Assembly: GCA_008011715.2 (NCBI GenBank) | Contig: CP136508.1 | Location: forward strand, 4,464,001 to 4,528,000 | Length of the DNA stretch: 64,000 nucleotides | Direction of reading: 5' to 3' | From: [Empedobacter] haloabium | GTDB taxonomy: Bacteria; Pseudomonadota; Gammaproteobacteria; Burkholderiales; Burkholderiaceae_D | In this document: positions 2,029 through 50,781 of the stretch, piece after piece | Layout of the letters: each line of letters begins with the position of its first letter | Position numbering within the stretch: position 1 is the stretch's first letter | Notes under the pieces: model-generated | Database searches by the model: none | The model's input: the letters and a program-made list of their open reading frames with translations, nothing else | What the model was told of the DNA's origin: nothing | Program-made: the position numbers and the translations under genes

Positions 2029-2081
2029 GGTGTCAGGCACCTGTCTTGGGGTCTAAGACCCCAAGACAGGTGCCTGACACC
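2029..2081. repeat. 53-bp palindrome, copy 1 (GGTGTCAGGCACC ends)
   Basis: This is a perfect inverted repeat with 26-bp arms (2029-2054 and 2056-2081) around a single centre base. The outer 13 bp read GGTGTCAGGCACC; the inner stem is TGTCTTGGGGTCT. The same architecture and length recur at 5378, 43738 and 50729. It lies between the VOC gene and the convergent GNAT gene. Confidence 0.9.
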
Positions 2082-2120
2082 GGGGGTCTTGTCCATGCTA
2101 TCAAAGCGCCGACGAACTTC

Positions 2121-2150
2121 GGGGTCAGTCCCTGCGCAGGGCCAGACCCC
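2121..2150. repeat. Short palindrome of the GGGGTC...GACCCC family
   Basis: The arms GGGGTCAGTCCCTGC and GCAGGGCCAGACCCC pair with two mismatches. The flank plus left arm (AACTTCGGGGTCAGTCCCTG, 2116-2135) matches, in reverse complement, the element at 11286-11390. It sits just 3' of the GNAT gene end. Confidence 0.75.
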
Positions 2151-2167
2151 AGCGGCGCCACGCTCCG

Positions 2168-3136
2168 CTACAGGCGCTTGCCGAAACAGACCGCGGCATC
2201 CATGCCGACGTACTTGCCATAGTTGTCGATGCGCCGGTAGCCATGCTTCTCGTAGAAGCGCACGGCGCGCACGTTGACCTTGCGCGTCTCCAGCCATACC
2301 TCGGCATACCCCAGCGCCGCAGCGCGCGCCTCCAGGTGCGCCAGCAGCGCGGCGCCGACGCCGGCATGGCCGGGCCGCGCATACATGCGCTTCAGTTCCG
2401 CGACCTGCGCCGTCAGCGGCCGCAGCGCCCCGCAGCCCACCGCCGCGCCATCGACGCTGGCCAGCACGAAGCACGCGCGCGGGTCGCGCACGTCGGCAAC
2501 GTCGAACGAGGCGTTGCCGCTGTCGCCCGTCAGCGCGCACAGGGCCGCGGACAGCTCGCCCAGCAGCGCGGCCGCCTGGGCGCCCGACGGGTCGGCCCGG
2601 GCGATCGCCAGGCGCGGCGCCAGCAGCTTGTACATCACCGTGGTCGCACCCAGGCTGCCGTCCGCCAGCCGGGCAAAGGCGGGAATCGCGCCGCAGACTT
2701 CGAAGCCGAGCCGGCGGTACAGGTGTTCGGCGCCGCTGCCCGTCCAGGTATCCAGCACGAGCAAGCTGCGGCCCAGCTCCCGCGCGCGCGCTTCGGCCGC
2801 GGTCATCAAGCCCAGCGCGATGCCGCGCCGGCGCGCCCGCGTGTGCACCAGCATCTTGTTGACCTCGGCCCGGTGCGCGCCGTTGGCCGGCATCGCCAGC
2901 GCCAGCTGCACGGTGCCGCAGATGCCTTCGGCGTCGCGCGCGACGAACACCGTGCGCGCGCCGGCGTCGACCTGCTGCGCGATGCCCAGCCACCAGCGCC
3001 GTGCGGCACTGACGTCGAACGGTGGCAGGAATCCGACGCTGGCGCCATGCGTCACGCAGTCGTGCAGCACGTCGGCCAGCGCGGCGACGTGGGCACGTAT
3101 GCCGTCGCCGTGCAATTCTTCGATGGCGGTGTTCAT
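2168..3136 (-). CDS. Tandem GNAT-family N-acetyltransferase (two GNAT domains)
   Basis: The 322-residue protein contains two GNAT acetyltransferase modules. The first spans about residues 1-170 and has the acetyl-CoA loop region around NKMLVHTRARRRGIALGLM, followed by LYRRLGFEVCG. The second spans about residues 185-322, with LKRMYARPGHAGVGAALLAHLEARA and VRFYEKHGYRRI. The first resembles GNATs that act on small amines or antibiotics, but the substrate is unknown. The frame stays open far upstream; the ATG at 3136 is chosen because it overlaps the stop of the XRE-cupin gene by four bases (ATGA), indicating coupled translation and probable control by that regulator. Confidence 0.85.
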   Translation of the reverse strand: MNTAIEELHGDGIRAHVAALADVLHDCVTHGASVGFLPPFDVSAARRWWLGIAQQVDAGARTVFVARDAEGICGTVQLALAMPANGAHRAEVNKMLVHTRARRRGIALGLMTAAEARARELGRSLLVLDTWTGSGAEHLYRRLGFEVCGAIPAFARLADGSLGATTVMYKLLAPRLAIARADPSGAQAAALLGELSAALCALTGDSGNASFDVADVRDPRACFVLASVDGAAVGCGALRPLTAQVAELKRMYARPGHAGVGAALLAHLEARAAALGYAEVWLETRKVNVRAVRFYEKHGYRRIDNYGKYVGMDAAVCFGKRL

Positions 3137-3696
3137 GGTTCGATGACGGCGATGAGGTAACGGGCCGGCTGCGGGCCGGGACAGACGAAGCGCGTCGGAC
3201 CGAACAGCCGGAAGCGCAGGCAGTCGCCCGCCTCCAGCCGGTATTCGACGCCTTCCAGCGTGTAGTGCAGCACGCCGGACAGCATCCACAGATGCTGTTC
3301 CATGCCACGCACGGCCGGCTGCTCGTAGTCGATCACGGCGCCTGCTGGCAGCGTGCCCTCCACCAGTTCGGCGCGCAGGCCTTGCGCCGGCGGCGAGACC
3401 ATGCGGCGCACGAAGCCGCTGGCCGGATCGGTCCAGACGGCCTGCTCGGCCGCGCGGATCAGCTGCGCGCCCTGCTCCTCGACCGCGGCGATCAGGCGGG
3501 ACATCGGCAGGCCGTAGACGGTGCACAGCTTGCCCAGCAATGCCGCCGTCGGGCTGCTTTCGCCCCGCTCCAGCCGCGACAGGGTAGCGCGGCTGATGCC
3601 GCTTGCATTGGCCAGCTCTTCCAGCGACAGTCCACGTTGTTCGCGCAGGGCGGCCAGGCGGCGCACGAGACGCGCCTCGAAGTGATCTTCTCTCAT
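3133..3696 (-). CDS. XRE-family transcriptional regulator with C-terminal cupin domain
   Basis: This 187-residue regulator has an N-terminal helix-turn-helix (about residues 10-65; LEELANASGISRATLSRLERGESSP) and a C-terminal cupin sensor domain (about 105-185; EQHLWMLSGVLHYTLEGVEYRLEAGD). Such proteins usually sense a small ligand and control a neighbouring metabolic gene. Its stop overlaps the start of the double-GNAT gene, so the target is probably that gene plus itself. GAGA/TCTC-type palindromes at 3701-3724, directly before the start codon, are candidate autoregulatory sites. No Shine-Dalgarno sequence is evident before this ATG. Confidence 0.9.
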   Translation of the reverse strand: MREDHFEARLVRRLAALREQRGLSLEELANASGISRATLSRLERGESSPTAALLGKLCTVYGLPMSRLIAAVEEQGAQLIRAAEQAVWTDPASGFVRRMVSPPAQGLRAELVEGTLPAGAVIDYEQPAVRGMEQHLWMLSGVLHYTLEGVEYRLEAGDCLRFRLFGPTRFVCPGPQPARYLIAVIEP

Positions 3697-3700
3697 GGAA

Positions 3701-3724
3701 GAGAATATATCTCATTTTCGAGAT
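3701..3724 (-). promoter_or_regulatory. Candidate operator/promoter of the XRE-cupin gene
   Basis: Two overlapping dyads, GAGAATATATCTC (3701-3713) and ATCTC-attttc-GAGAT (3709-3724), begin 4 bp upstream of the XRE start. On the minus strand TATATT (3711-3706) resembles a -10 hexamer only about 9 bases from the ATG, so the mRNA may be leaderless or nearly so. This is inference from position and symmetry. Confidence 0.45.
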
Positions 3725-3933
3725 ACGGGGGAGGACTGAATGGCCGGCTTTTTGCTGGCCTGTCCAGCTTGACTTTGGACGCACCGTGCACAAAAGTGTA
3801 AATAGCCGCTCACATGAAGAAGGTGGCAGCCTTCTCGCGACACCTCTTCCGCCAGCCGGCGCGGACGCCGCTCGGGCGGCAGATGACAACGAAGACGGTA
3901 TGCCGCCGGATGGGCGCGTGAAAGGAGCGTACG

Positions 3934-4242
3934 ATGAAAAGCAATTCGCTTTGCCTGCTGATCGTGCTGGCCGGCACCCTGGCGGCCTGCGCCGGGTCGA
4001 ACAGGGATGGCGCTGGCCGCGCACAGCCGCATGAGGACCTCTATATGACGCAGACGACCTCGTCCGGCACCTCCGCCACCATGGACGACATCGTCAAGGA
4101 CATGCCGTGCTCCCGGCACCGGCATACGCACAGTGTCCCGGACGAACAGGCACGACGGGCGCTGAAGGAAGGGGATACGCAGTCGATGTCGCCGTCGATG
4201 CGCGCGCAGCACATGGCAATGCTGGGTCAGCATTGCCAGTGA
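3934..4242 (+). CDS. Small putative lipoprotein
   Basis: The 102-residue product starts with a lipoprotein signal: a positively charged start (MKSN), a hydrophobic stretch, and a lipobox LAAC with Cys at residue 19. The mature part is polar and contains CSRHRHTHSVPDEQARRALKEGD and two later Met-rich stretches (SMSPSMRAQHMAMLGQH), so metal binding is conceivable but unproven. AGGAG precedes the ATG. I recognise no family. It stands alone between a leftward regulator and a leftward transporter. Confidence 0.7.
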   Translation: MKSNSLCLLIVLAGTLAACAGSNRDGAGRAQPHEDLYMTQTTSSGTSATMDDIVKDMPCSRHRHTHSVPDEQARRALKEGDTQSMSPSMRAQHMAMLGQHCQ

Positions 4243-4346
4243 CGACGGCGCCGCTCGCCCACGGCCAGGCATACGACGGTCGCGCACGCGCCCGGGCGGG
4301 CTGCGCGGCGGATCGACCTTGCCGCGCAGCCGACGGGCGGCACCCG

Positions 4347-5327
4347 TCAGTCGGCGCGGCGCGCGAAGCGCTGCGCCAGCACGGCGCACACCATCAGCTG
4401 GATCTGGTGGAACAGCATCACGGGCAGGATGATCATGCCCAGCGACGACGTGGCAAACAGCACCTTGGCCATCGGCACGCCCGAGGCCAGGCTTTTCTTC
4501 GAACCGCAGAACACGATCGTCACCTCGTCCGCGCTGGAAAAGCCCAACCGCCGGCTGGCCCAGAACGACAGCCCCAGCACCACGGCCAGCAGCACGCAGC
4601 AGATCAGGCCCAGGGTCACGAGCAGCTGCGGCGACAGCTTGTGCCACAGCCCTTCGGACACGGCTTCGGAAAACGCCGTATACACGACCAGCAGGATCGA
4701 GCCCTGGTCGACGTATTTCAGCATCGGCTTGTGGCGGTCGACCCACGCGCCGATCCAGCGCCGGCACACCTGCCCCGCAATGAACGGCACCAGCAGTTGC
4801 AGCACGATGGCCAGCACGGCATCGAGCGACGAGCGTCCCGCCTGGCCCTGCACGATGAAGGCGCCGACCAGCAGCGGCGTGATGAAGATGCCAAGGAAGT
4901 TCGACGCGGACGCGCTGCAGATCGCCGCCGGCACATTACCGCGCCCCATCGCCGTCATCGCGATGGACGACTGCACGGTGGACGGCAGCATGCACAGGAA
5001 CAGCAGGCCCAGATACAGGTCCGGTGTCAGCACCGCCAGCGCGACCGGCTTCAAGGCCAGGCCGAGGATGGGGAACAGCACGAAGGTGCAGGCCAGCACC
5101 AGCAAGTGCAGGCGCCAGTGCGTCAGGCCGGCCACGATCGCCTCGCGCGACAGCTTGGCGCCGTGCAGGAAGAACAACAGGCCGATGGCGAAGGTGGTGA
5201 TGTCGCCGAAGACGACGGCGGTTTGCCCGGTGCAGGGCAGCACCGACGCGATGGCGACGGTGCTCAGGAGGGCAAGCGTGAAATTGTCAGGCTTGAGGCG
5301 GGACAGCAGTGCGGATGCGGAAGACAT
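4347..5327 (-). CDS. Bile acid:sodium symporter family (SBF-like) transporter
   Basis: The 326-residue integral membrane protein has about ten hydrophobic segments and the layout of the SBF-like/YfeH group of the bile acid:Na+ symporter superfamily. It includes FGDITTFAIGLLFFLHGAKLSREAI near the N-terminus and MLPSTVQSSIAMTAMGRGNVPAAICSASASNFLGIF in the middle, where the polar and Gly/Pro-broken helix resembles the substrate crossover region. It is expected in the inner membrane; the natural substrate is unknown, and bile acids are unlikely for an environmental bacterium. It is monocistronic, followed by no close same-strand gene. Confidence 0.85.
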   Translation of the reverse strand: MSSASALLSRLKPDNFTLALLSTVAIASVLPCTGQTAVVFGDITTFAIGLLFFLHGAKLSREAIVAGLTHWRLHLLVLACTFVLFPILGLALKPVALAVLTPDLYLGLLFLCMLPSTVQSSIAMTAMGRGNVPAAICSASASNFLGIFITPLLVGAFIVQGQAGRSSLDAVLAIVLQLLVPFIAGQVCRRWIGAWVDRHKPMLKYVDQGSILLVVYTAFSEAVSEGLWHKLSPQLLVTLGLICCVLLAVVLGLSFWASRRLGFSSADEVTIVFCGSKKSLASGVPMAKVLFATSSLGMIILPVMLFHQIQLMVCAVLAQRFARRAD

Positions 5328-5377
5328 CGGGCCATTTTAGCCCAGCATCGGAATGATTGCTTGAAGCAGGAACCCAT

Positions 5378-5430
5378 GGTGACAGGCACCGATCTTCGAG
5401 TCGAGGACTCGAGGATCGGTGCCTGTCACC
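5378..5430. repeat. 53-bp palindrome, copy 2 (GGTGACAGGCACC ends)
   Basis: The 13-bp ends GGTGACAGGCACC / GGTGCCTGTCACC enclose the inner arms GATCTTCGAGTC and GACTCGAGGATC with a 3-base centre and one mismatch. Flanks AACCCAT and TGCGGGTT extend the symmetry. It lies between the transporter start and the pit stop. Confidence 0.9.
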
Positions 5431-5455
5431 TGCGGGTTTGACACCTGCGGCTGTG

Positions 5456-6466
5456 TTACATGATGTGGCGACCCAGCCACCAGGCGATGGCGGCCACGAA
5501 CGCGGAAGCGGGAATCGTGAAGATCCATGCCCACACGATATTGCCGGCCACGCCCCAGCGCACGGCCGACAGGCGCTGCGCCGAGCCGACGCCGACGATG
5601 GCGCCCGTGATCGTGTGCGTCGTCGAGACGGGCACGCCCCAGAACGACGCCATGATCAGGGTCAGCGCGCCGCCGGTCTCGGCGCAGAAGCCGCCGACGG
5701 GTTTGAGCTTCGTGATCTTCTGGCCCATGGTTTTCACGATGCGCCAGCCGCCGAACAGCGTGCCGAACGAGATCGTCGCGTAGCAGGCGATGATGACCCA
5801 CAGCGGCGGCTCGGCATCGGTCGCGGCCACGTGGCCGGAGGCGATCAGCAGCATCCAGATGATGCCCATGGTCTTCTGCGCGTCGTTGCCGCCGTGACCC
5901 AGGCTGTAGGCGGCGGCGGAAGCCAGCTGCAGGCGGCGGAACCAGCCGTCGATCTTGCGTGGCGTCGATTTGACGAACACCCACGAGACGATCAGCATGA
6001 TGATGGAACCCAGCACGAAGCCCAGGAGCGGTGCCAGCACGATGAACATGACGGTCTTCATCAGGCCGCCGGCGATCAGCGCGCCGGTACCGGACTTGGC
6101 GACGGCCGCGCCCACCAGGCCGCCGATCAGCGCGTGCGACGACGACGACGGAATGCCGTAGTACCACGTGATCAGGTTCCAGACGATGGCGCCGACCAGC
6201 GCGCCGAAGATGACGTAATGGTCCACCACGTGCGGATCGATGGTGCCCTTGCCGATGGTCTGGGCCACTTTCAGCCCGACGATGAAGATCGCGATGAAGT
6301 TGAAGAAGGCGGCCATCGCCACCGCCGACTGCGGCTTCAGCACGCCCGTCGACACCACCGTCGCGATCGCGTTGGCGGCGTCGTGGAAGCCGTTCATGAA
6401 GTCGAAGACGAGTGCCAGGAAGATCAGTACAGCCAGCGCGTAGATGCTGATTTGTAGGGTCTGCAT
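5456..6466 (-). CDS. pit: Inorganic phosphate transporter, Pit family
   Basis: The 336-residue protein has the two internally repeated signature regions of Pit/PiT carriers: DFMNGFHDAANAIATVV near residue 22 and GHGGNDAQKTMGIIW near residue 195, each in a helix-rich context. Pit carriers import metal-phosphate complexes with protons. It follows the DUF47 gene by 27 bp on the same strand. That is the standard pairing of Pit with a PhoU-like accessory protein, so the two almost certainly form an operon. Length is shorter than the E. coli PitA (about 500), but usual for the DUF47-linked form. Confidence 0.95.
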   Translation of the reverse strand: MQTLQISIYALAVLIFLALVFDFMNGFHDAANAIATVVSTGVLKPQSAVAMAAFFNFIAIFIVGLKVAQTIGKGTIDPHVVDHYVIFGALVGAIVWNLITWYYGIPSSSSHALIGGLVGAAVAKSGTGALIAGGLMKTVMFIVLAPLLGFVLGSIIMLIVSWVFVKSTPRKIDGWFRRLQLASAAAYSLGHGGNDAQKTMGIIWMLLIASGHVAATDAEPPLWVIIACYATISFGTLFGGWRIVKTMGQKITKLKPVGGFCAETGGALTLIMASFWGVPVSTTHTITGAIVGVGSAQRLSAVRWGVAGNIVWAWIFTIPASAFVAAIAWWLGRHIM

Positions 6467-6493
6467 ATTGTTGTAGTTTCTATCGCTGGCGCT

Positions 6494-7120
6494 TTACGCG
6501 TTTTCGACGATGATGCCTTCGATGATGTTGGCCACGTCCTCGCAGCGGTCCGTCACGGTTTCCAGGATCTCGTAGATCGCCTTCATCTTGATCAGGTTGC
6601 GCACGTCCGGTTCGTCGCGGAACAGCTTCGACATGGCGGCGCGCATCACGTGGTCGGCATCCGATTCCAGGCGGTCGATCTCTTCGCAGATGGCGACGAT
6701 GTCGCGCGCGTTGTCCATGTTCGACAGCAGCGCCACGGCGTCCTTGACCTTCTCGCAGCAGGCCAGCACCAGTTCGGCCAGGCGTTTCGCTTCCGGCGTC
6801 ACGGCATGCAGGTCGTACAGCGACACGGTCTGGCCGGCGTCTTCCATCATGTCCAGGATGTCGTCCATCTTGGTGATCAGCTTGTGGATGTCGTCGCGGT
6901 CGATCGGCGTGATGAACGTCTTGTGCAGCAGGTCGACGGTGGTGTAGGTGATCTTGTCGGCCTGCTTCTCGATGCTCTCGATCGCGTGCACGCGATTTTC
7001 CAGGTCGTCGAAGTTGGTCATCAGGCCAAGCATTTCTTTCGCGCCTTTGACGCACAGCTCCGCATGCTGGTTGAACAGGTCAAAGAATTTGCCCTCGGTG
7101 GGCATCAAGCGTCCAAACAT
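6494..7120 (-). CDS. DUF47 (PhoU-like) phosphate transport accessory protein
   Basis: The 208-residue, mostly helical cytoplasmic protein begins MFGRLMPTEGKFFDLFNQHAE, the typical start of the DUF47/YkaA family. It contains repeated acidic metal-binding-type helices (MDDILDMMEDAGQ, EEIDRLESDADHVMR) as in PhoU. It is probably a regulator or partner of the downstream Pit transporter. The start at 7120 has GGAGAAC upstream. It is the first gene of the two-gene unit. Confidence 0.93.
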   Translation of the reverse strand: MFGRLMPTEGKFFDLFNQHAELCVKGAKEMLGLMTNFDDLENRVHAIESIEKQADKITYTTVDLLHKTFITPIDRDDIHKLITKMDDILDMMEDAGQTVSLYDLHAVTPEAKRLAELVLACCEKVKDAVALLSNMDNARDIVAICEEIDRLESDADHVMRAAMSKLFRDEPDVRNLIKMKAIYEILETVTDRCEDVANIIEGIIVENA

Positions 7121-7201
7121 TTTGTTCTCCGTTGGTTGATTCGGTGGTGCTGCGGGGCCCTCGCGCGCGGAAGGCCCGGTGGCAACCGTCGATGAGCTTC
7201 G

Positions 7202-8590
7202 TCAGTCGCCCTGGTAGATCGACAGGTTGCCGGTGTAGTTGCCAAACTTGGTGTACATGCCCATCCACGTGAGGCGGATCGCGCCGATGGGACCGTTACG
7301 CTGCTTGCCGATGATGATCTCGGCGGTTCCCTTGTCCGGCGAGTCGGGGTTGTAGACCTCGTCGCGGTACAGGAAGATGATCACGTCCGCATCCTGTTCG
7401 ATAGCGCCGGATTCGCGCAGGTCGGACATGACGGGACGCTTGTTCGGGCGCTGTTCCAGCGAGCGGTTCAGCTGGGACAGCGCGATCACGGGGCAGTGCA
7501 ATTCCTTCGCCAGCCCTTTCAGCGACCGTGAGATCTCGGAGATCTCGGCGGCGCGGTTGTCGCCCGGCTGGGAGCCCTGCATCAGCTGCAGGTAGTCGAC
7601 GATGATGAGACCGAGCTTGCCACACTGGCGCGCCAGGCGGCGCGCCCGCGCGCGCATCTCGATCGGGTTCAGCGCCGGCGTCTCGTCGATGTAGAGCTGG
7701 GCTTCGTTCATCTTCTGGATGGCGTGCGTCAGGCGCGGCCAGTCCTCGTCGTTCAGCTTGCCCGTACGAAGCCTGTGCTGGTCCAGCTGGCCGACCGAGC
7801 CCAGCATACGCATGGCCAGCTGGGCGCCGCCCATCTCCATCGAGAACACGGCCACGGGCAGGCCCGCTTCGATCGCCACGTTCTCGCCGATGTTGACGGA
7901 GAACGCGGTCTTGCCCATCGACGGACGGCCAGCCACGATGACCAGGTCGCCCGGCTGCAGGCCGGAGGTCATTCGGTCCAGGTCGATGAAGCCGGTCGGC
8001 ACGCCGGTGATCTCGCTGGTGCTTTCGCGGCTGTACAGCTCGTCGATGCGCTCGACCACCTGCGTCAGCAGGGGCTGCACGGCAGTCCAGCCGGACGAAC
8101 CGCGCGAGCCCGCTTCGGCGATGGCGAAGATCTTCGACTCCGCCTCGTCCAGCATCTGCTTGACTTCCTTGCCCTGCGGGCTGAAGGCGTTGCCGGAGAT
8201 TTCGTCGGCCACGGTGATCAGCTTGCGCAGCACGCCGCGGTCGCGCACGATCTCGGCATAGCGGCGGATGTTGGCCGCGGACGGCGTGTTCTGCGCCATC
8301 GCGTTCAGGTACTGCAGGCCGCCCACTTCGTCGGCCTTGCCCAGCATCGTCAGCGCCTCGTAGACGGTGATGACGTCGGCCGGCTTGCCCGCGTTAATCA
8401 GGCGCACCATCTGCTCGAAGATGATGCGGTGGTCGTAGCGGTAGAAATCCTCCGGGTTCATGAAGTCGGCAATGCGGTCCCACGCGGCGTTATCGCGCAG
8501 CAGGCCGCCGATGACGGACTGTTCTGCCTCGATGGAATGCGGCGGGATGCGTAGGGAGTCGACTTGCGGGTCGGATGGGGCGGCGTTCAT
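7202..8590 (-). CDS. dnaB: Replicative DNA helicase DnaB
   Basis: This is the 462-residue hexameric helicase that unwinds DNA at the replication fork. The N-terminal DnaB domain (about residues 10-110, SIEAEQSVIGGLL) is followed by a RecA-like ATPase with Walker A GRPSMGKTAFS, and IIVDYLQLM as Walker B/H3. The GAIEQDADVIIFLYR segment lies near the C-terminus. The frame is open to 8653, but the ATG at 8590 (MNAAPSDPQ) gives the usual length. It lies downstream of rplI, separated by a terminator, as in other betaproteobacteria. Confidence 0.97.
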   Translation of the reverse strand: MNAAPSDPQVDSLRIPPHSIEAEQSVIGGLLRDNAAWDRIADFMNPEDFYRYDHRIIFEQMVRLINAGKPADVITVYEALTMLGKADEVGGLQYLNAMAQNTPSAANIRRYAEIVRDRGVLRKLITVADEISGNAFSPQGKEVKQMLDEAESKIFAIAEAGSRGSSGWTAVQPLLTQVVERIDELYSRESTSEITGVPTGFIDLDRMTSGLQPGDLVIVAGRPSMGKTAFSVNIGENVAIEAGLPVAVFSMEMGGAQLAMRMLGSVGQLDQHRLRTGKLNDEDWPRLTHAIQKMNEAQLYIDETPALNPIEMRARARRLARQCGKLGLIIVDYLQLMQGSQPGDNRAAEISEISRSLKGLAKELHCPVIALSQLNRSLEQRPNKRPVMSDLRESGAIEQDADVIIFLYRDEVYNPDSPDKGTAEIIIGKQRNGPIGAIRLTWMGMYTKFGNYTGNLSIYQGD

Positions 8591-8704
8591 GGCGCGAATT
8601 ATACCTGCTTCGGGTTTGCGAAGTTCATTAAAGAAAGGCACCGACCTGAGCAAAACGTTGCATTTTCAACGCTTTGCGGGCAATCGTGCCATCTTCACAA
8701 TGCA

Positions 8705-8733
8705 ATAAAAAAGCCGGGCGAACCCGGCTTCTT
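8705..8733 (-). terminator. Rho-independent terminator after rplI
   Basis: On the minus strand an 8-bp stem (AAGCCGGG / CCCGGCTT, 8711-8718 and 8723-8730) with loop TTCG is followed by a run of six U. It ends the rpsF-priB-rpsR-rplI unit before dnaB. Confidence 0.88.
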
Positions 8734-8777
8734 CAAAGCTAAGACAGTCTGACCGTGGAATAAATTCCCGGCGCGAC

Positions 8778-9230
8778 TTAGGCTGCGTCGCCCACGACGG
8801 CCACGGTCACTTCGACCACGACGTCGGTGTGCAGCGACACGGAGACCGGGTGCTCGCCCACGGTCTTCAGCGGGCCGGTCGGCAGGCGTACGGCAGCCTT
8901 TTCGACTGCGAAACCAGCCTTCGTCAGCGCTTCGGCGATGTCGTAGTTGGTCACGGAACCGAACAGACGGCCATCCACGCCGGCCTTCTGCGACACGGTC
9001 ACGGTCATGCCGTTCAGCTTTTCGCCTTGGCCTTGTGCGGCAGCCAGCTTTTCAGCGGCGGCTTTTTCCAGTTCGGCGCGCTTGGCTTCGAACTCGGCCA
9101 CGGCGGCCGTCGTGGCACGACGTGCCAGCTTTTGCGGGATCAGGAAGTTACGTGCGTAGCCGTCCTTGACCTTCACGACGTCGCCCAGGTTGCCGACGTT
9201 GATGACTTTTTCCAACAGAATGATTTGCAT
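8778..9230 (-). CDS. rplI: 50S ribosomal protein L9
   Basis: The 150-residue protein begins [21 protein letters not shown] and continues with [12 protein letters not shown], the signature of L9, which binds 23S rRNA domain V. A long central helix (about residues 45-75, [18 protein letters not shown]) joins the N- and C-terminal domains. It is the last gene of the rpsF-priB-rpsR-rplI group. The gap from rpsR is 30 bp and the ATG is preceded by GGAGAG. Confidence 0.98.
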
Positions 9231-9260
9231 AGTTCTCTCCAGGATCTATCTGAACCGCGA

Positions 9261-9551: not shown

Positions 9552-9552
9552 T

Positions 9553-11285: not shown

Positions 11286-11390
11286 GGGGTCTGTCCCTGC
11301 ACAGGGACTGACCCCGAAGTTTGAACAGATGCATCAACAGCTGGCTGAACGCGAGCAAACTTCGGTGTCAGTCCCAAAGGGACAGACCCC
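11286..11390. repeat. Compound palindromic element between lexA and the PLP enzyme
   Basis: There is a left hairpin at 11286-11315 (GGGGTCTGTCCCTGC / ACAGGGACTGACCCC) and a right hairpin at 11364-11390 (GGTGTCAGTCCC-aaa-GGGACAGACCCC). They are joined by a middle piece whose ends CCGAAGTTTG (11314-11323) and CAAACTTCGG (11355-11364) are complementary. The outermost 13 bp of the whole element also pair with each other, so several alternative folds are possible. Confidence 0.8.
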
Positions 11391-29288: not shown

Positions 29289-29345
29289 GGTTGCTGTTTA
29301 TGCTTGAGTGTCCGGGCCCGATAACGAACCCAAAGGCGTAAATCT

Positions 29346-29372
29346 GGGGTCAGACCCGGCGGGTCTGACCCC
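29346..29372. repeat. 27-bp palindrome GGGGTCAGACCC-ggc-GGGTCTGACCCC
   Basis: It has perfect 12-bp arms around GGC, between leuC and the entericidin-like gene. It belongs to the short GGGG-C-G-CCCC repeat family. Confidence 0.85.
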
Positions 29373-29425
29373 GGCCTGTCGCCGTTGGGTGAAACGGCAA
29401 ACCTGCCCCTTACTTAATACAACGT

Positions 29426-30981: not shown

Positions 30982-31063
30982 GTTGCCTTAAAAATGGGGA
31001 CAGACCCCATTTTAAGGGAAACATTGCCAAATAATTGGGGTCTGTCCCCATTTCCGTGGCAAC
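30982..31063. repeat. 82-bp double-hairpin repeat between cheA and leuC
   Basis: Outer ends GTTGCC (30982) and GGCAAC (31063) are inverted. Inside are AAAATGGGG-acaga-CCCCATTTT and ATTGGGG-tctgt-CCCCATTT, joined by AAGGGAAACATTGCC. About 60 bp of it aligns with the reverse complement of 19203-19261. Confidence 0.85.
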
Positions 31064-31099
31064 AAAAAAAAAGCCTGCGAGGCGGTCGCAGGCTTTTTT
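31064..31099 (-). terminator. Terminator of cheA (stem flanked by A and T runs on both sides)
   Basis: AAGCCTGCGA and TCGCAGGCTT (31071-31080, 31086-31095) form a 10-bp stem with a 5-base loop. Runs of A and T flank it, so it could work in both directions. It follows the cheA stop by about 20 bp. Confidence 0.88.
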
Positions 31100-43101: not shown

Positions 43102-43214
43102 GGAGTCAATTATGTAACAGCCGTGGATACAAATCAGGTGTACGCCAGCGTACAGAGTCGCGCCGGGTGCGCGCGTATCGTTGGGCTTTGTTCTGGACAA
43201 TACAGGAGGCCACG

Positions 43215-43712
43215 ATGACGATATTTACCAAGGACGAACTGGACGATCTGACCAAGCGCGTCAAGGATGTGAAGTTCGGGATGTTCACCACGAGCGACGA
43301 CGAGAACCGGATGACGAGCCGCCCGCTGACGCTGCAGCAGATCGACGAGGCCGGCACGATGTGGTTCTTTGTTTCCGACGAGGAGGAGTTCACGACGCAC
43401 CTGGTGAACAACCCCTCCGTCAACGTCAGCTTTGCCGACGTCGACGATCACCTGTACGTATCCGTCGCCGGCCGCGCGGCGCTGGTACGCGACCGCGCCA
43501 AGATGGAGCAGCTGTGGAAGCCCTCCGTCAAGGCCTGGTTCCCGGAGGGTCTGGACGACCCGCACCTGGCGCTGCTGGAAGTGCAGATCCAGTCGGCCGA
43601 GTACTGGGATACGGGCAACAGCAAGATGGTGAGCCTGTTTGCGATGGCGAAGGCGGCGCTGACGGGCAAGCGGCCGACCAATGTTGGCGAGCACAAGCAC
43701 TTGGGGCACTGA
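43215..43712 (+). CDS. Pyridoxamine 5'-phosphate oxidase-like (general stress, FMN-binding split barrel) protein
   Basis: The 165-residue protein has the split-barrel FMN fold of the general stress protein 26 type: FGMFTTSDDENRMTSRPLTLQQIDEAGTMWFFVSDEEEFTTHLVNNPSVNVSFAD, then EVQIQSAEYWD near the end. Such proteins bind flavin and are linked to oxidative stress; they are not PdxH. The open frame extends upstream, but the ATG at 43215 has AGGAGG 5 bases before it. It diverges from the PepSY operon; the 53-bp palindrome lies after its stop. Confidence 0.9.
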   Translation: MTIFTKDELDDLTKRVKDVKFGMFTTSDDENRMTSRPLTLQQIDEAGTMWFFVSDEEEFTTHLVNNPSVNVSFADVDDHLYVSVAGRAALVRDRAKMEQLWKPSVKAWFPEGLDDPHLALLEVQIQSAEYWDTGNSKMVSLFAMAKAALTGKRPTNVGEHKHLGH

Positions 43713-43737
43713 GCCAGACAAACCCGCGGTAACCCGT

Positions 43738-43790
43738 GGTGACAGGCTCCTATCTGGCCGCCGCCGGCGGCCAGATAGGAGCCTGTCACC
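43738..43790. repeat. 53-bp palindrome, copy 3 (GGTGACAGGCTCC ends)
   Basis: The perfect 26-bp arms around one centre base have outer 13 bp GGTGACAGGCTCC and an inner stem TATCTGGCCGCCG. Flanks AACCCGT and TTTGGGT resemble those of copies 2 and 4. It starts 25 bp after the stress-protein stop. Confidence 0.9.
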
Positions 43791-43830
43791 TTTGGGTCTT
43801 GCCGGCGCCGAGAGTAGCTTTGCCTCACCC

Positions 43831-43857
43831 AAAAAAAATCCGCCAACCGGCGGATTT
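43831..43857 (-). terminator. Terminator after the small 76-residue gene
   Basis: AAATCCGCC-aacc-GGCGGATTT (43836-43844, 43849-43857) forms a 9-bp stem. On the minus strand it ends in a run of eight U. Confidence 0.88.
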
Positions 43858-43920
43858 CATTCGACGTCCAGCCCGACTTCGGCCCGCCCCTCACATGCGG
43901 GCCGCGTCGGCGCGTTGCCG

Positions 43921-44151
43921 TCATACGCCGGAACTGGCTTCCGGCCCTGGCGCTCCGCCTTCCGTACCGGGCTGTTCGCCCTGGCGTGCGCCCTGATCCG
44001 TGCTCTGGCGGTTGCCCGGGATCGGCCGGTCGACCCGCCTGACTTCCGTTTCCGGAAAATCGATGTTGCCGATGCCCGGATGCTCGGTGTCCACTAGCAC
44101 GAAATTCTCTTCGCTGCTTTTGTTCTTGCGGGAATTGTCAGATGGAGTCAT
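43921..44151 (-). CDS. Small hydrophilic hypothetical protein
   Basis: The 76-residue polar, low-complexity protein begins TPSDNSRKNKSSEENFVLVDTEHPGIGNIDFPETEVRRVDRPI and has a Gly/Gln/Glu-rich tail. GGAG lies 7 bases before the ATG at 44151; an alternative ATG two codons earlier is too close to this site. I recognise no family. It is probably co-transcribed with the KGG stress protein upstream and may likewise be an intrinsically disordered stress protein. Confidence 0.6.
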   Translation of the reverse strand: MTPSDNSRKNKSSEENFVLVDTEHPGIGNIDFPETEVRRVDRPIPGNRQSTDQGARQGEQPGTEGGAPGPEASSGV

Positions 44152-44183
44152 GCCCATTCTCCTCGACGTGCTTCCTGCGCTGT

Positions 44184-44477
44184 TCAGCCCTGGTTGCCCT
44201 GGTCATTGCCACCGCCGGAATTACCGCCGCGTGCGCTTTGGCGATTGCCGTTCTTGTGGCTCATGGCCCCAGCCCGGCGTGCCTCCTCCGACGTGAACTC
44301 GTGCGCCGTGCCTTTCGCATGCGCGGCACGTCCCCCTTCGGATGCGATCTCGCGCTGACGCTGCGGATCCATCGACGCAAAGCCGCGATTACGCGTTGCG
44401 CTTTGCTTGTTACCCGTATTGCCCTGGGCCTCGCCTTGTCGGTTACCTCGATTATTACCCTGATTCGATGATGCCAT
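44184..44477 (-). CDS. KGG-motif (con-10/YciG-like) stress protein
   Basis: The 97-residue hydrophilic protein has NRGFASMDPQRQREIASEGGRAAHAKGTAHEFTSEEARRAGAMSHKN, the repeated GG-x-(A/S) and GF-x-x-M pattern of the stress-induced KGG family (related to YciG and fungal con-10). Gln/Asn/Gly-rich tails lie on both sides. The start is ATG at 44477 with AGGAG; a TTG two codons upstream is less likely. Members accumulate in stationary phase or under desiccation. Confidence 0.85.
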   Translation of the reverse strand: MASSNQGNNRGNRQGEAQGNTGNKQSATRNRGFASMDPQRQREIASEGGRAAHAKGTAHEFTSEEARRAGAMSHKNGNRQSARGGNSGGGNDQGNQG

Positions 44478-44678
44478 GATCAATTCTCCTGAAGTGATGC
44501 ATTGGGGGATTTTGACGTGGTGGAGTGAGGGAGGAACCCGCGCCCGATCGTTCTCACCGACCAGCGACGATCATTGTTATAACGATCGGGCAACAGGAGT
44601 ACTCATCGTAGTGCAAACACTGAGCAGGAAATATAGGACGCGTACAGGTGTCCCTGTAGGACAGCACCTACCAAAACC

Positions 44679-45335
44679 CTATTTATTTTCCAGTGGGAAA
44701 ATCGCTTCTTCCACCGCCAGGTACAGCCTGTCCTCCGCCGCCGGCTCGATCTCATGGCCGCCCGTGAAGGAACCGAACGACGGCAGGATGGCACGGCGCG
44801 GGCCGACCAGGAAACAAGGCAGGCGCATGGACTCGCGCCCGGCCCGCAGCCGGTAGACGGGATGGACGTGCCCGGCCAACACGTAGCCGTCGCAGGCGAG
44901 GTCGGGGTGGTGGCAGAACGCGAACGGCCCCAGCACGTAAGGCTCGTCCACCAGCGCCAGTCCCAGCTGCGCGGCCGGATCGCCCGCATGCTTGTCGTGG
45001 TTGCCGCGCACCAGTGTCAGCACCAGGTCGGGATGGCGCGCGCGCCAGGCCAGCATCGCCTGCACGGTAGCGGACGCATGCGCCGCTTTCGCATGCAGGA
45101 AGTCGCCCAGGAACAGCACGTGGCGCACGTCGTGCGCCGCCAGCAGCGCATCGAGCGCCTCTAGGTTTTCGGTGGTCGTCCCGCGCGGGACGGGAATACC
45201 CAACGCACGGAACGACGCCGCCTTGCCGAAGTGGATGTCGGCGATCACCAGCATCCGTTCGCGCGGCCAGTACAGGGCTTTCTGCGCCAGCAGCAACACC
45301 GCTTCGCCCGCCAGCTCGGTGGACGCCGCGTTCAT
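44679..45335 (-). CDS. pdeM: Ligase-associated DNA damage response phosphoesterase/endonuclease PdeM
   Basis: This 218-residue calcineurin-like metallophosphoesterase shows the metal-binding motifs in order: [35 protein letters not shown] and LAGHVHPVY. It is the fourth gene of the cassette exonuclease-ligase-helicase-phosphoesterase. The ATG at 45335 overlaps the helicase stop by 4 bases, so the longer open frame (which enters the helicase gene) is rejected. It is probably a DNA-processing nuclease in a repair pathway. Confidence 0.93.
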
Positions 45336-47809
45336 GGTCCGGCCGCCTTCTCGAGTTCGCGCAGCACGCGCGCCACGCGGTCGGACAGCTTCTCCGTCGA
45401 CAGCTTCTCGCGGAAGCGCTCGACCATCAGCGCGAAGCCGAACGGCGTGGCTCTTTTTGTCTCGTGGTAGCTGACGGCGCGCCCCTGCAGCTCCTCCAGC
45501 GTGGCGCGCAACCGGTTCAGTTCCAGTTCCTGCTCCAGCACTTCGCGCTGGGCCTGCGTCAGCAACAGGTTGCCGGCGTCGTGCTTGCGGAACACCTCGA
45601 AGAACAGCGACGACGAGGCCTGGATCTGCCGGTTGCTTTTCGGCTGGCCCGGATAGCCCTGGAACACCAGGCCGGCGATGCGGGCGATCTCGCGGAAGCG
45701 CCGCTGCGACATTTCGGTCGCGTTCAGGCTCGCCATCACGTCCTCCAGCAGGTGCCCGGTGCCGAACAGGCCGACGTCGCGGCCGTGCGCCGGCGCGAAC
45801 ACGGTGGCCCAATCGACGTTGTCCGGCGCCAGCAGCTCGAAGCCGTAGTCGTTGACGGCGATGGAAAAGGTGATCGGCTGCATACGGCCGATGCGGTAGG
45901 CGAACAGCGAGGCCAGGCCGATGTGCACTGCCCGCCCGGCGAACGGATACACGAACAGGTGATGGCCCTCGCGGCTGTGCAGGCTTTCGATGACGGTGCG
46001 CGCCGGCGTCGGCAATGCCGACCAGCGCGCCTGGATCTCCAGCAGTGGCGCGATCGCCAGCATCTCGGGCCCGCTGTAGACGCCTTCGGTGACGCGCTGC
46101 ATCTGCGCCAGCGCCGCATGCGCCAGCTCGGACGACAGCGGCATCTTGCCGCCCTGCCAGCGCGGTACCGCGCCCTTGGCACCCGTGGCACGCTTCACGT
46201 AAGCCGTCATCTCGTGCACGCGGATGAATTCCAGGATGCGGCCACCGAACAGGAAGTTGTCGCCCTTGTTCAGGCGCGCGATGAAGCCCTCCTCCACCGT
46301 GCCGATGCGCCCGCCGCTCTGGTACTTCACCTGGATCATCGCCTCGGACACGATGGTGCCGATGCCCATGCGGTGGCGCCGGCCCAGCGCCACGTCCGGC
46401 ACACGGTAGACGCCTTCCTCGTCCGGCAGCACGCGGCGGTATTCCGGGTAGACGGTGAGGCTCTGGCCGCCGCGCGCGACGAAGTCCAGCGCCCACTGCC
46501 ACTCCTCCTCCGTCAGGTGGCGGTACGACCAGGCGCCACGCACCTCGTCGAACAACGCCTCGGAGCGGAAGCCGCCGCCCAGCGCGATCGTGACGAGGTG
46601 CTGCACCAGCACGTCCAGCGGCTTTTCGGGCACGTGGCGCGCCTCGATGTCGCGGTCCTTGACGGCCTGGATCGCGCCAGCCGCTTCCAGCAGTTCCAGG
46701 CTGTGTGTGGGCACCAGGGTGACGCGCGAGACGCGGCCCGGCGCATGGCCGGAGCGCCCGGCCCGCTGCAGCAGACGGGCGATGCCTTTGGCGCTGCCGA
46801 TCTGCAGCACGCGCTCGACCGGCAGGAAGTCCACGCCCAGGTCCAGGCTGGAGGTGCAGACCACCGCTTTCAGCTCGCCCTTCTTCAGGCCCAGCTCGAC
46901 CCAGTCGCGCACTTCCTTGTCCAGCGAGCCGTGGTGCAGCGCGATGATGCCGGCCCAGTCGGGCCGCGCCTCCAGCATGTTCTGGTACCACAGTTCCGCC
47001 TGCGAGCGGGTATTGCAGAACACCAGCGTGGTGGCGTGCCGCTCGATCTCGCCGATCACGGCGGGCAGCATCTGGATGCCCAGGTGACCGGCCCACGGAA
47101 AGCGCGAGGGATTCGCCGGGATCAGGGTGTCGACCAGGATGTCCTTGCGGATGCTGCCTTCCACCGTGGCGCCGGCCATGCCCGGTCCCAGCAGCACCTC
47201 CTTGGCGCGCGGCAGATTGCCCAAGGTGGCGGAGAGGCCCCACACGACCAGTTCGCCGCCCGCCTGGTGCGCCCAGCGCCGCAGCCGGGCCAGCGCCAGT
47301 TGCGTCTGCACGCCGCGCTTGTTGCCCATCAGCTCGTGCCATTCGTCGATGATGACCATGTCCAGCAGCGCGAACTGGGTGGCGGCATCGGCCTTGGACA
47401 GCATCAAGGTCAGGCTTTCCGGCGTCGTGATCAGGGTGTCCGGCAGATGCTTGGCCTGGCGTGCGCGGGCGGCGGACGAGGTGTCGCCGGTGCGCGCATC
47501 GACCGTCCAGCCGGGCATCAGCTCGGCCGCTGATTCGCTCAGCGCGCGCAGGGTATCGGCCGCCAGCGCGCGCATCGGCGTGATCCACAGCACGCGCAGG
47601 CCGCGCTTCCTGGATGGCTTGGCGCACATGGCCCGCTGCAGCGCGGCGAACCAGACCGCGAACGTCTTGCCGGAGCCAGTCGTGGCATGCAGCAGGCCCG
47701 ATTCGCCCGCCAGCGCGGCCTGCCAGACGGCGCGCTGGAACGGGAAGACCTGCCAGCCGCGCTTGGCATAAAAGGTGCCGACCTGGCGGGCCGCGTCGCG
47801 CCGGTTCAT
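45332..47809 (-). CDS. Ligase-associated DNA damage response DEXH-box helicase (Lhr-like)
   Basis: The 825-residue superfamily 2 helicase has Walker A TTGSGKT (residues 43-49) and Walker B DEWH (residues 155-158, rather than DEAH). [13 protein letters not shown] is motif [41 protein letters not shown] contains motifs V-VI. The C-terminal half is the Lhr-core type domain. It is the third gene of the four-gene repair cassette and starts 10 bp after the ligase stop. Confidence 0.94.
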
Positions 47810-47819
47810 GCGCGCCTGC

Positions 47820-49472
47820 TCATGCGCCGATGCTGGCCTGGGCCAGCAGGCCTTTCAGGGTATCGAGCGTGTCGGCCTCCTCCACGCTCTTGTCGTCGCG
47901 CCGGCGCAGGATGCGCGGGAAGCGCACCGCGATGCCGGATTTGTGGCGGGGCGACGCGGCGATGCCTTCGAACCCGATCTCGAACACCATCGTCGGCCGC
48001 ACGCTGCGCACCGGGCCGAACTTCTCGATCGTGGTGCGGCGGATCGCATTGTCCACCTGCGCGATCTCGGCATCCGTCAGGCCCGAGTAGGCCTTGGCGA
48101 ACGGCACCAGCTGGCGGCCGCCATTGCCGTCGCCGTCCCACACGGCGAACGTGTAGTCGGTGTACAGCGAGGCGCGCCGGCCATGCCCGGCCTGGGCGTA
48201 GATCAGCACCGCATCCACGCTGTAGGGATCGATCTTCCACTTCCACCACGTGCCCACGTCCTTGGTGCGACCCACGCCGTATTGCGCGCTGGCGGCCTTG
48301 ATCATCATGCCCTCGACGCCGCGCGCGCGCGACTCGTCGCGGATGCGCGCCAGGTCGTCCCAGCTGGTCGCATGGACAAGCGGCGAGATGCGCAGGCGCG
48401 GGTTGTCCACGCGCGCCACCAGTTGTTCCAGCAGCGTGCGCCGTTCGCATTGCGGCAGCTGGCGCAGGTCCACGCCATCCAGTTCCAGCAAGTCGTACGC
48501 CACCAGCGCGGCCGGCAGCTCGGCCAGCAGCTTGGCCGACAAGGTCTTGCGGCCGATGCGCTTCTGCAGGTCGGCGAACGGCGACGGATTGCCGCTGTCC
48601 TTGTCGCCGGTCTGCCAGACCAGGATCTCGCCATCGACCACGGTGCCATCGGGCAGCCGGATCGCCGCCAGCTCCGGAAAGCGCTCCGTGATCAGGTCCT
48701 CGCCGCGCGACCACAGCCAGTTGTCGCCGGCGCGCGCGACCAGCTGCGCGCGCATGCCGTCGTATTTCCACTCGACCTGCCAGTCCTTCAGCTCGCCCAG
48801 CGTCTGCGGCGCCGCCTGCAATTGATGCGCCAGGAAGAAGGGGTAAGGCTGGCCGCCGCGCATCGCGTGTTCCTGGTCCGATTGCGCCGCGATCAGTTGC
48901 AGGAAGCCTTGCGCGGTGGGCCGCACGCTGCCGTCCGTCCAGCCCATCAGGCGCTGCGCGATCAGCTTCGAGTCGACCGCCGCGATGGCGGACAACGCGC
49001 GCGTGACGAGGAGCTTCGAGACGCCGACGCGGAAACCGCCGCCGATCAGCTTCATCAAGAGGAAGCGTTCGCGCGTCTCCAGTTCATCCCAGTAGTCGAA
49101 CAGCGCCTGGCGTATCGTCTCCGGCGCCGCGCCACGCAGGGGCGCGATGCGCTGCTCGATCCATACCGCCAGCCCGACGTCGCTGCGCGTCTTCGGCTCC
49201 GGCAGGATGTGGGCGATGGTTTCGGCCAGGTCGCCCACGGCGTCGTAGCATTCGTCGAACAGCCAGTCGTCCAGGCCCGCGTATTCGGTGGCGTACTGGC
49301 GCAGCAGTTTGACGGGCACGGCCTGGCGCGGCTTGCCGCCGGCCAGGAAGTAGACGGCCCATGCGGCGTTCTCCGGCGCGGCGCTGGAAAAGTAAGCCTT
49401 CAGGGCTTCCAGCTTGCGGTTGGTGGCGGTGGTCTCGTCCAGCTCCGCGTACAGGCGGGCGAATTCACGCAT
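47820..49472 (-). CDS. ATP-dependent DNA ligase (ligase-associated DNA damage response)
   Basis: The 550-residue ATP-dependent ligase has an N-terminal helical DNA-binding domain (about residues 1-205). The nucleotidyltransferase domain has active-site Lys236 in [11 protein letters not shown], motif [12 protein letters not shown] and motif V EGMMIKA. The C-terminal OB domain has motif VI near the end. The ATG at 49472 ([13 protein letters not shown]) overlaps the exonuclease stop region by 8 bases; another ATG lies two codons earlier. Bacterial ligases of this type work in repair, not replication. Confidence 0.94.
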
Positions 49473-50619
49473 CGGCATCCTCCCCGCCTGCCTCGTCCAC
49501 CTGGCGACGCGCTTCGGCCGTGCCGGCGGCGCGCGCCGCGTCGGCCTTTTCGCCAACTGCCCAGCGCTGCGCGACGGGGTCCGGCTCGGCTGCCACCACG
49601 CCTTCCGCCGCCGCGCCGGCCGCCGCCGCATTTTCCGCTTCGTCGTCGCCGTATTCGGTGTCGAAGCCCTTGGCATCCAGGCCGTTCTGGCACAGCCAGC
49701 GCACCATCGTGGGAATCGAACCGTGCGTGACGACGACCCGTTCCGCCTCGGTGGCCTTGATGGCGCTCATCAGGCCAGGCCAGTCGGCGTGGTCGGACAG
49801 CACGAAGCCGCGATCGACGCCACGCCGGCGCCGGGCGCCGCGCAACAGCATCCAGCCGCTGGCAAAGGCGTCGCTGAAGTCGCCGAAGCGCTTGACCCAC
49901 GGCGAGCCGCCGGCCGACGGCGGCGCGATGATGATGGAACGCTTGATGTCGGCCTTGTCCACGTCGCTGACCATCTTCGTTTCCGGCAGCGGCACGCCGG
50001 CGGCGCGGTAGACGCGGTTCAGCGGCTCTACGGAGCCGTGGCAGATGATCGGGCCGATCGAGGCATCGAGGCCGGACAGGATGCGCTGCGCCTTGCCGAA
50101 CGAGTAGCACAGCATCAGGCTGGCGCGTCCCTCGGCGGCGTTCTTGCGCCACCATGCGTTGATGTCGTCGAAGGTCTGCTGCTGCGGCTCCCAGCGGTAG
50201 ATCGGCAGGCCGAAGGTCGACTCCGTGATGAAGGTATGGCAGCGCACCGGCTCGAACGGGGTGCAGGTGGCGTCCCCCTCGACCTTGTAGTCGCCCGAGG
50301 CGACCCAGATTTCGCCGCCGCATTCGAGCCGTACCTGGGCCGAACCGAGCACGTGGCCGGCGGGATGCAGCGAGATCCGCACGCCGTTGTGTTCGATGGT
50401 TTCACCGTAGTCGAGACCCTGCACGGTGATCTCGCCCAGGCGCGAGCGCAGGATGCCGACGCCGGGGTTGGCGGCCAGGTAGTGGCCGTGGCCGACGCGC
50501 GCATGGTCGCCGTGGCCATGCGTGATGACGGCGCGCTCGACGGGCCGCCACGGATCGATGTAGAACTGGCCCGGCACACAGTACAGGCCTTCCTTGCGTA
50601 CCACCACCATATCGGACAT
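49465..50619 (-). CDS. Ligase-associated DNA damage response exonuclease (metallo-beta-lactamase/beta-CASP fold)
   Basis: The 384-residue nuclease has the MBL metal motif ITHGHGDHARVGHG near residue 35, then HPAGHVLGSAQVRLE, VASGDYKVEGD, ESTFGLPIYRW and LSDHADWPGLM, as in SNM1-like exonucleases. The core ends at about residue 335. The remaining 50 or so residues are Ala/Glu-rich ([20 protein letters not shown]...), longer than the usual form. It is the first gene of the cassette. Confidence 0.92.
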   Translation of the reverse strand: MSDMVVVRKEGLYCVPGQFYIDPWRPVERAVITHGHGDHARVGHGHYLAANPGVGILRSRLGEITVQGLDYGETIEHNGVRISLHPAGHVLGSAQVRLECGGEIWVASGDYKVEGDATCTPFEPVRCHTFITESTFGLPIYRWEPQQQTFDDINAWWRKNAAEGRASLMLCYSFGKAQRILSGLDASIGPIICHGSVEPLNRVYRAAGVPLPETKMVSDVDKADIKRSIIIAPPSAGGSPWVKRFGDFSDAFASGWMLLRGARRRRGVDRGFVLSDHADWPGLMSAIKATEAERVVVTHGSIPTMVRWLCQNGLDAKGFDTEYGDDEAENAAAAGAAAEGVVAAEPDPVAQRWAVGEKADAARAAGTAEARRQVDEAGGEDADA

Positions 50620-50728
50620 ATGCTTTCCCTCTTCCGGCTTTTGGTCATTCTAGCTAGTGAGGGATTGCTTGTATGTCCGTTGGCGTACAGTGCGCGGGTC
50701 AGCCGCAGGCTGTTCCCGCAAGACCCAT

Positions 50729-50781
50729 GGTGACAGGCACCTATCTGGAGGTCGGAGACCTCCAGATAGGTGCCTGTCACC
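50729..50781. repeat. 53-bp palindrome, copy 4 (GGTGACAGGCACC ends)
   Basis: Outer 13 bp GGTGACAGGCACC / GGTGCCTGTCACC; inner arms TATCTGGAGGTC and GACCTCCAGATA with a 3-base centre. Flanks AGACCCAT and CGGCGGGTTT. It lies between recQ (stop at 50797) and the exonuclease start. Confidence 0.9.

Follow-up and report, generated by a model that had tools for sequence, protein, structure and literature searches.

REPINs, inverted doublets of repetitive extragenic palindromic (REP) sequences, were described by Bertels and Rainey in 2011 (PMC3116915), and the excerpts of that paper present them as elements whose spacer seems to matter both in its length and in its ability to form a hairpin, with compensatory changes being common. 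In a 64,000-nucleotide stretch of the [Empedobacter] haloabium genome (contig CP136508.1, positions 4,464,001 to 4,528,000; hereafter, the window), four 53-bp palindromes represent a dispersed family of this type, made up of two inverted REPs at a set spacing that fold into a hairpin in predictions for both single-stranded DNA and RNA and occur more often as doublets than as singlets. The family shares with the excerpted REPINs the conserved inverted ends, the variable spacer of set length, the hairpin, the compensatory changes, the excess of doublets, and the link to REP-associated tyrosine transposases (RAYTs). It differs from them in its 13-bp end, GGTGWCAGGCWCC, which lacks GTAG, in a length of 53 to 54 bp compared with spacings of 71 and 110 bp, in arms that are perfect up to the loop, in the absence of a detected cognate RAYT from its own genome, and in being packed against stop codons.

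Two other described systems come close. The terminal inverted repeats (TIRs) of the TIRYT elements carry the motif GGGGWSAS (Di Nocera 2013, PMC3733652), and TIRYT elements are probably the TnpA-REP subclass 2.1 of Quentin 2018 (PMC6006769), as far as the excerpts of both papers go. Like the present family, they are terminal repeats of Y1 transposases, are in some cases self-complementary, and often form dimers; GGGGACAG-headed family variants at some orthologous sites, and GGGGTCAGGCACC beside a Y1 gene of a relative (locus L034 of genome G032), add to the likeness. However, strict copies of the family begin GGTGWCAG, a head that comes near GGGGWSAS, and the RAYTs with the exact 13-mer have about 220 amino acids. 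In the excerpts of two further papers, template switching between inverted repeats is reported to leave homogenised arms and inverted spacers (PMC8604942) and is put forward as a process that maintains pairing in RNA stems (PMC8794818). The joint change of both arms and the inversion of the spacer are likewise seen here, but the cases in those excerpts are yeast coding DNA and RNA genes, whereas this is a dispersed bacterial repeat family. Literature searches with the 13-mer strings returned, among the matches listed, no title on bacterial repeats; those combining REP or RAYT with Massilia, Duganella, Janthinobacterium, or Oxalobacteraceae returned no REP terms among the matches listed; and among those listed for REP or REPIN with template switching, no paper joined the two topics. 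Taking the evidence below together, we consider it likely that the family consists of REPINs that were spread by a RAYT, are now probably immobile, and have arms that are kept identical by templated copying.

Structure of the family and change at orthologous sites

The preliminary description, made from the letters of the window, had reported four palindromes of 53 bp with near-constant ends, and all four were recovered exactly (Table 1), with no match to the pattern in 100 shuffles of the window. Its statement that pairing is kept in every copy held for three of them, each with 25 of 25 arm pairs, but not for the second, which has a single mispair; across the four copies, 99 of 100 pairs are intact. 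A strict search of the whole genome (a single contig of 6.48 Mb, designated G000; other G numbers denote the genomes of relatives), in which total lengths of 38 to 68 bp were permitted, yielded 81 copies, including 58 of 53 bp, 19 of 54 bp, 3 of 55 bp, and 1 of 45 bp. Neither of the two findings that would have refuted the preliminary description was made: the ends are common to far more than a handful of copies, and lengths other than 53 bp are the less frequent ones. The number 81 is a lower bound because GGGG-headed variants of the family occur as well (for example, at position 9892 of L129).

Among the 81 copies, 80 sequences and 67 left arms are distinct, the spacing of the REPs is set (77 copies have 53 to 54 bp), and all 25 arm pairs are intact in 70. 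At column 5, the outer W agrees between the two arms throughout the family (45 copies of T type, 36 of A type, none mixed). The partly shared outer flanks in the preliminary description were also found throughout the family, in which 95% of the copies have C at position -4 and 98% have G at +4. The flank profile reads RACCC-NN on the 5' side and NN-GGGTY on the 3' side, or has one of these replaced by AAACACC or GGTGTTT, which indicates a full unit of about 69 bp; in the predicted folds of window copies, the flanking ACCC pairs with GGGG or GGGT. The GTAG or GTGG tetranucleotide is absent from the foot of the hairpin, where the copies begin with GGTG (as set by the search pattern) and are flanked by RACCC-NN or AAACACC. 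The 81 doublets account for 162 of the exact 13-mer arms, of which G000 has 186 in all. Variation of the inner part at a fixed length had been thought unusual, but this is not supported, since conserved ends around a less conserved spacer whose length is set, with compensatory changes being common, already belong to the description of REPINs according to the excerpts (PMC3116915).

The two arms of a copy differ, over 12 columns, by 0.13 on average, compared with 3.95 between copies. How this arises was addressed at orthologous sites in G065, one of the nearest relatives identified (91% across the whole test locus). For 28 of 83 G000 elements (the 81 strict copies plus GGGG variants in examined loci), both flanks were located in examined G065 DNA, and a strict element lay between them at 18. 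By eye, the other 10 sites hold altered family members (L014, L015, and L053/1919), other REP families (L005, L059, and L072), deletion-like changes (L069 and L073), or nothing (L054 and L070). In the reverse direction, both flanks of 32 of 64 G065 elements were located in examined G000 DNA, with a strict element between them at 18; of the other 14, inspected by eye, L004 is strict but cut by the alignment, some are altered or decayed family copies (L271/7669, L277, and L283, among others), roughly half contain REP-type repeats of other kinds, and the remainder show little or nothing. The shared fraction is biased since the examined DNA was selected partly by elements.

The count of changes is based on 18 sites, comprising 17 strict pairs of comparable length and L053/1919, which was aligned by hand with one padded gap; L074 (45 versus 53 bp) was set aside. 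Among 216 inner pairs, 183 were unchanged, 27 had changed on both sides, and only 6 had changed on one side. Among the outer pairs, in which the search pattern restricts changes as it does not in the inner ones, 222 were unchanged and 11 had changed on both sides, with 1 gap. Divergence between the two genomes at fourfold-degenerate sites is 17.2% (1,306 of 7,590), and independent neutral arms would be expected to show about 62 one-sided changes and about 2 matching both-sided ones. The both-sided changes amount to 12.5% of inner pairs, or roughly 0.7 times the neutral rate per site. Theory expects far fewer both-sided changes for neutral double mutants that pass through a harmful intermediate. 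At 6 of the 18 sites, the arms differ by exactly one both-sided change and are otherwise identical (at L064 and L068, this change affects column 5 of the outer arms), and at 2 of the 18 the loop is inverted (TTC/GAA and TCC/GGA). These paired changes between orthologous sites at a near-neutral rate, together with the flipping of loops, are what is new here.

Control hairpins in the same alignments behaved otherwise. In 42 hairpins inside genes, 4 changes were both-sided and 42 one-sided, the opposite of the 17 family hairpins in these alignments (32 both-sided and 7 one-sided; Fisher p = 2.5e-12). Seven terminator-like hairpins had no both-sided and 2 one-sided changes, with 65 of 67 pairs unchanged, and 3 other noncoding hairpins had none and 3, respectively; two further hairpins were dropped because of gaps. 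Of the two causes that the preliminary description had offered, selection and copying, the changes between orthologs fit copying from arm to arm better than selection on pairing. Homogenised arms and inverted loops are the published signature of template switching, and template switching is taken as the best account of the process. In this account, the element, two inverted 13-bp REPs 27 to 28 bp apart and about 69 bp with its flanks, would in the past have been spread by a RAYT (a Y1 tyrosine transposase) acting on a folded single strand. The strand would fold during replication and DNA synthesis would switch to the other arm, so that a change in one arm would be either erased or copied into its partner, with the loop sometimes flipped, and the inner stem would drift at a nearly neutral rate while its pairing is kept.

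Gene context and the alternatives

The copies have a strongly skewed position. Of 78 classed copies, 43 are flanked by convergent and 35 by tandem genes, and none by divergent ones, while 2 more lie inside called frames and 1 is unclassed; the median distance to the nearest upstream stop codon is 12 bp (79 copies; gene calls were made with our own purpose-written caller on 1.5-kb flanks). In 14 stretches, some of which were picked because elements were expected there, 25% of 275,713 intergenic bp are convergent and 29% divergent, and relative to these shares the convergent excess (p = 2e-8) and the divergent lack (p = 2e-12) are pronounced. A preference of REPs for unidirectional and convergent spacers has been published (PMC3733652, excerpt). 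Such positions may reflect tolerance, not function, the copies surviving where they would be least harmful, directly past stop codons.

The same skew is what would be expected if the palindromes acted at RNA 3' ends as selected hairpins, either bidirectional terminators or stabilisers of mRNA, with ordinary compensatory evolution of a transcribed stem, and this is the best placed of the alternatives, although we regard it as unlikely. The predicted RNA folds of the window copies are very stable (-53 to -64 kcal/mol), GNRA fits one strand of 13 of the 19 four-base loops (hand count), and at one orthologous site, by eye, G066 has a U-tract hairpin in the place of the G000 palindrome. Like Rho-independent terminators, the elements are GC-rich hairpins right past stop codons and are often common to convergent genes. 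Unlike them, however, they have no U tract 3' of the stem in the flank profile of the 81 copies, and their stem sequence is not conserved but changes on both sides at a near-neutral rate, whereas the terminator-like control hairpins are conserved; the reading as canonical Rho-independent terminators is not supported. The mispairs also argue against a selected RNA stem, since the 14 found in 80 copies (the 45-mer, with 10 mispairs, was excluded from the tally) include, as transitions, 4 G.T and 5 A.C on the listed strand, with no bias toward G.U. In addition, the element at L054 sits past a terminator-like hairpin with a T run. A canonical terminator was scored at 3 of 113 gene 3' ends beside copies and not at the other 110. 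Such terminators are neither clearly commoner nor rarer near an element (1 of 21 3' ends with a copy versus 19 of 201 without), and these counts do not support the replacement of terminators by elements.

Slightly less probable still is replacement, in which a copy is overwritten through gene conversion by another family member, or by a newly inserted one, so that both arms change at once. It would suit the differences of 5 to 6 pairs at L004, L053/1500, and L056/1500, and other REP families do fill the same slot in the other species at several sites (e.g., at L005, L059, and L072). However, it does not readily explain the 6 of 18 sites at which a single pair differs and the rest of the arms are identical; the two sites changed only at column 5 would require a donor with the same inner arms, and 80 of the 81 copies are distinct.

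One slot past a gene that looks HU-like (L053 1920-1973; orthologs L212 to L215) is occupied by different hairpins. In G000 and G028 it has a palindrome of the family with a GGGG head and in G065 one that is shorter by one base, whereas the ACGGCGGTTCA hairpin found there in G078 and G066 is unrelated.

Transposase genes and distribution in relatives

The nearest named relatives in a scan with the XseA protein, against a collection that may lack the record of G000 itself, were Pseudoduganella buxea (87%) and P. umbonata (86%), which suggests a genus placement near Pseudoduganella. The strict pattern was found in 5 of 61 genomes, with 81 copies in G000, 21 in G003, 16 in G032, 3 in G028, and 1 in G020, and beyond that set G065 has 113, about half of which entered the comparisons. 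As only G000 had it among 369 genomes of a class-wide sample, the strict family looks genus-level. A collection of plasmids gave no match. Three identical copies in G065 (G065:C1 1451436, 1451671, and 1451907) lie at steps of 235 to 236 bp as a tandem triplication.

Y1 transposase genes (PF01797) number 5 in G000, 20 in G003, G032, G028, and G020 together, and 10 in G065, G066, and G078 together. The resemblance to REP elements moved by RAYTs that the preliminary description had noted holds in congeners, where the exact 13-mer flanks RAYT genes of G078 and G032, but not in G000, where it lies within 1.5 kb of none of the five Y1 genes. The G078 RAYT has four exact copies of GGTGACAGGCTCC, the end of the third window copy, nearby, two per side in inverted orientation; the G032 RAYT (L045) has one exact 13-mer and two GGGG variants, GGGGACAGGCTCC; and the G003 RAYT (L046) has the close variant GGTGACAGACACC. 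The three proteins form one clade (support 97/93), which had no G000, G065, or G028 member in a tree of 27 proteins that leaves out L319 to L321 and 5 of 25 Y1 translations, which were in a wrong frame. This clade is of the kind with about 220 amino acids, without the C-terminal helix-turn-helix that was read by eye in L017, L019, and L034. In G000, four of the five Y1 genes bear or adjoin other repeats, such as GGGGTCAGACCC, GGTGACTGACACC, GGGGTCAGTCCC, and GGGGTCAGGTCTGG, and L017 and L019 are among the genes that bear them.

We read the G000 copies as a RAYT-orphan population of REP doublets, in which the copies would now be immobile and mostly inherited in place. Alternatively, they may be served by a transposase that is divergent or went unrecognised, or in trans by one of the five Y1 proteins resident in G000. 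A symmetrical REPIN that still moves actively, its transposition folding back and recopying one arm so that new copies start perfect, would account for the patchy presence, the set length, and the RAYT-type ends, but it is improbable given that no cognate RAYT was found in G000, that doublets are asymmetrical in G003 and G032, which have the RAYT, and that 21 of 28 sites have the family in G065 as well (18 strict, plus the variants at L014, L015, and L053/1919 by eye), which in this biased sample indicates that much of it was inherited in place.

Several observations weigh against immobile REPINs with arms maintained by templated copying. No cognate RAYT was found in G000 by the PF01797 search or by a search with the G078 RAYT protein, whose best G000 match in 74 genomes genus-wide had 54% identity (gene L018). 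The RAYT assignment is not unique, owing to L034, a second and longer Y1 gene in G032 that has two copies of GGGGTCAGGCACC on its upstream side and four of GGGGTCAGGCACG on its downstream side (1202, 1314, and 2502-2670), which are one base and two bases, respectively, off the T-type end of the family. G003 and G032 carry the RAYT, and yet their arms are not homogenised. Perfect inner arms occur in 69 of 77 copies examined in G000, 35 of 53 in G065, 0 of 11 in G003, and 0 of 8 in G032, so that 18 of the 53 in G065 are imperfect; the within-copy difference over the 12 inner columns rises from the 0.13 of G000 to 0.43 in G065, 4.91 in G003, and 5.75 in G032. Template switching would accordingly have to spare some doublets or require near-identical arms to begin with. 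Of the copies examined in G065, 53 of 57 have 53 to 54 bp. Since 11 of 12 copies examined in G003 (and 8 of 13 in G032) have 54 bp, the set length is independent of arm matching, at least in G003.

The loops hint at some constraint on the hairpin, as GNA occurs on one strand in 45 of 58 three-base loops (GGA in 22, GAA in 17, and GCA in 6), compared with about 26 (about 45%) expected from the loop columns. C-GNA-G forms a very stable DNA mini-hairpin, and the enrichment may hint that folding of single-stranded DNA matters. Among 8 aligned sites, no clean pair of filled and empty sites that would mark fresh insertion or excision was seen; the differences there look like decay or deletion, and some are ambiguous. 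Moreover, the set of noncoding control hairpins is small, the sites with 5 to 6 changed pairs (L004, L053/1500, and L056/1500) may be replacements, and selection for a perfect hairpin, combined with conversion by copies elsewhere, could in part produce a similar picture. Part of the arm changes may thus stem from donor replacement or selection.

Further repeats were seen beside transposase genes. The 13-mers of the REP/RAYT set seen here in Oxalobacteraceae are mostly of the form GGKGWCAGNC, and the RAYTs examined often have their own 13-mers of one general form, such as the seven GGGGACAGCCTCC within 450 bp of the G028 RAYT L327. At L020 2869-2923 lies a perfect palindrome, GGGGTCAGGTCTGGCAATCGGACAT, of 53 bp inside an outer C/G pair; it is an inverted dimer of the repeat found on both sides of the longer Y1 gene L019 and constitutes a second family of equal length. 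Adjoining the RAYT gene L018, CTGTCTCTTATACACATCT at L018 998-1016 (G000:C1 about 2099956-2099974) is presumably a Nextera transposon end, likely an adapter left in the assembly, and the junction there may be false.

The window copies and the meaning of arm covariation

The copies in the window and their extended units are listed in Table 1. The first copy with its flanks has a predicted single-stranded DNA fold of -36.9 kcal/mol (z = -11). The window gave no Rfam family and no tRNA or transfer-messenger RNA.

Table 1. Family copies in the window and their flank-extended units, with neighbouring genes
Feature	Position	Strand	Characteristics	Setting
Copy 1	2029..2081	.	T type; arms GGTGTCAGGCACCTGTCTTGGGGTC; loop TAA; perfect	Convergent spacer; 34 bp past stop of + gene 1602-1994 (glyoxalase family); 86 bp past stop of - gene 2168-3136 (GNAT)
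Copy 2	5378..5430	.	A type; one T.G mispair at arm column 18	25 bp past stop of - gene 5456-6466 (PHO4 phosphate transporter)
Copy 3	43738..43790	.	Ends GGTGACAGGCTCC; perfect	25 bp past + gene 43215-43712 (Pyrid_ox_like)
Copy 4	50729..50781	.	A type; loop GGA on + strand; perfect	15 bp past - gene 50797-52500 (DEAD/RecQ-like helicase); 109 bp before start of next - gene
Copy 1, extended unit	2022..2088	.	Outer ACCC/GGGT flank stem (81-copy flank profile and fold)	
Copy 2, extended unit	5371..5437	.	Outer flank stem (81-copy flank profile and fold)	
Copy 3, extended unit	43731..43797	.	Outer flank stem (81-copy flank profile and fold)	
Copy 4, extended unit	50722..50788	.	Outer flank stem (81-copy flank profile and fold)	

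Other REP-like palindromes lie at 2121-2150 (in the same convergent spacer as copy 1), 11304-11375, 29328-29390, and 30982-31063; their cores are of the GGGGTCAG or GGGGACAG type, and they apparently belong to other families of the same superfamily. A hairpin of A and T tracts at 31067-31099 (AAAAAAGCCTGCGA..TCGCAGGCTTTTTT) resembles a canonical bidirectional terminator and contrasts with the family.

The function of a hairpin is usually proved by covariation between its arms. If templated copying is what keeps the arms alike, such covariation in REPs, REPINs, and palindromes of their kind does not on its own point to selection. Our judgement is evenly balanced on the broader proposition that the compensatory changes of REPINs are mainly mutational, with symmetrical REPINs perfecting themselves by template switching at near the neutral rate and outlasting their transposase. 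The REPIN population of this genome does seem to outlive its own transposase. A dispersed family of this kind offers natural replicates, here 18 orthologous sites in two species, and would, if templated copying is at work, serve as an assay of natural template switching.

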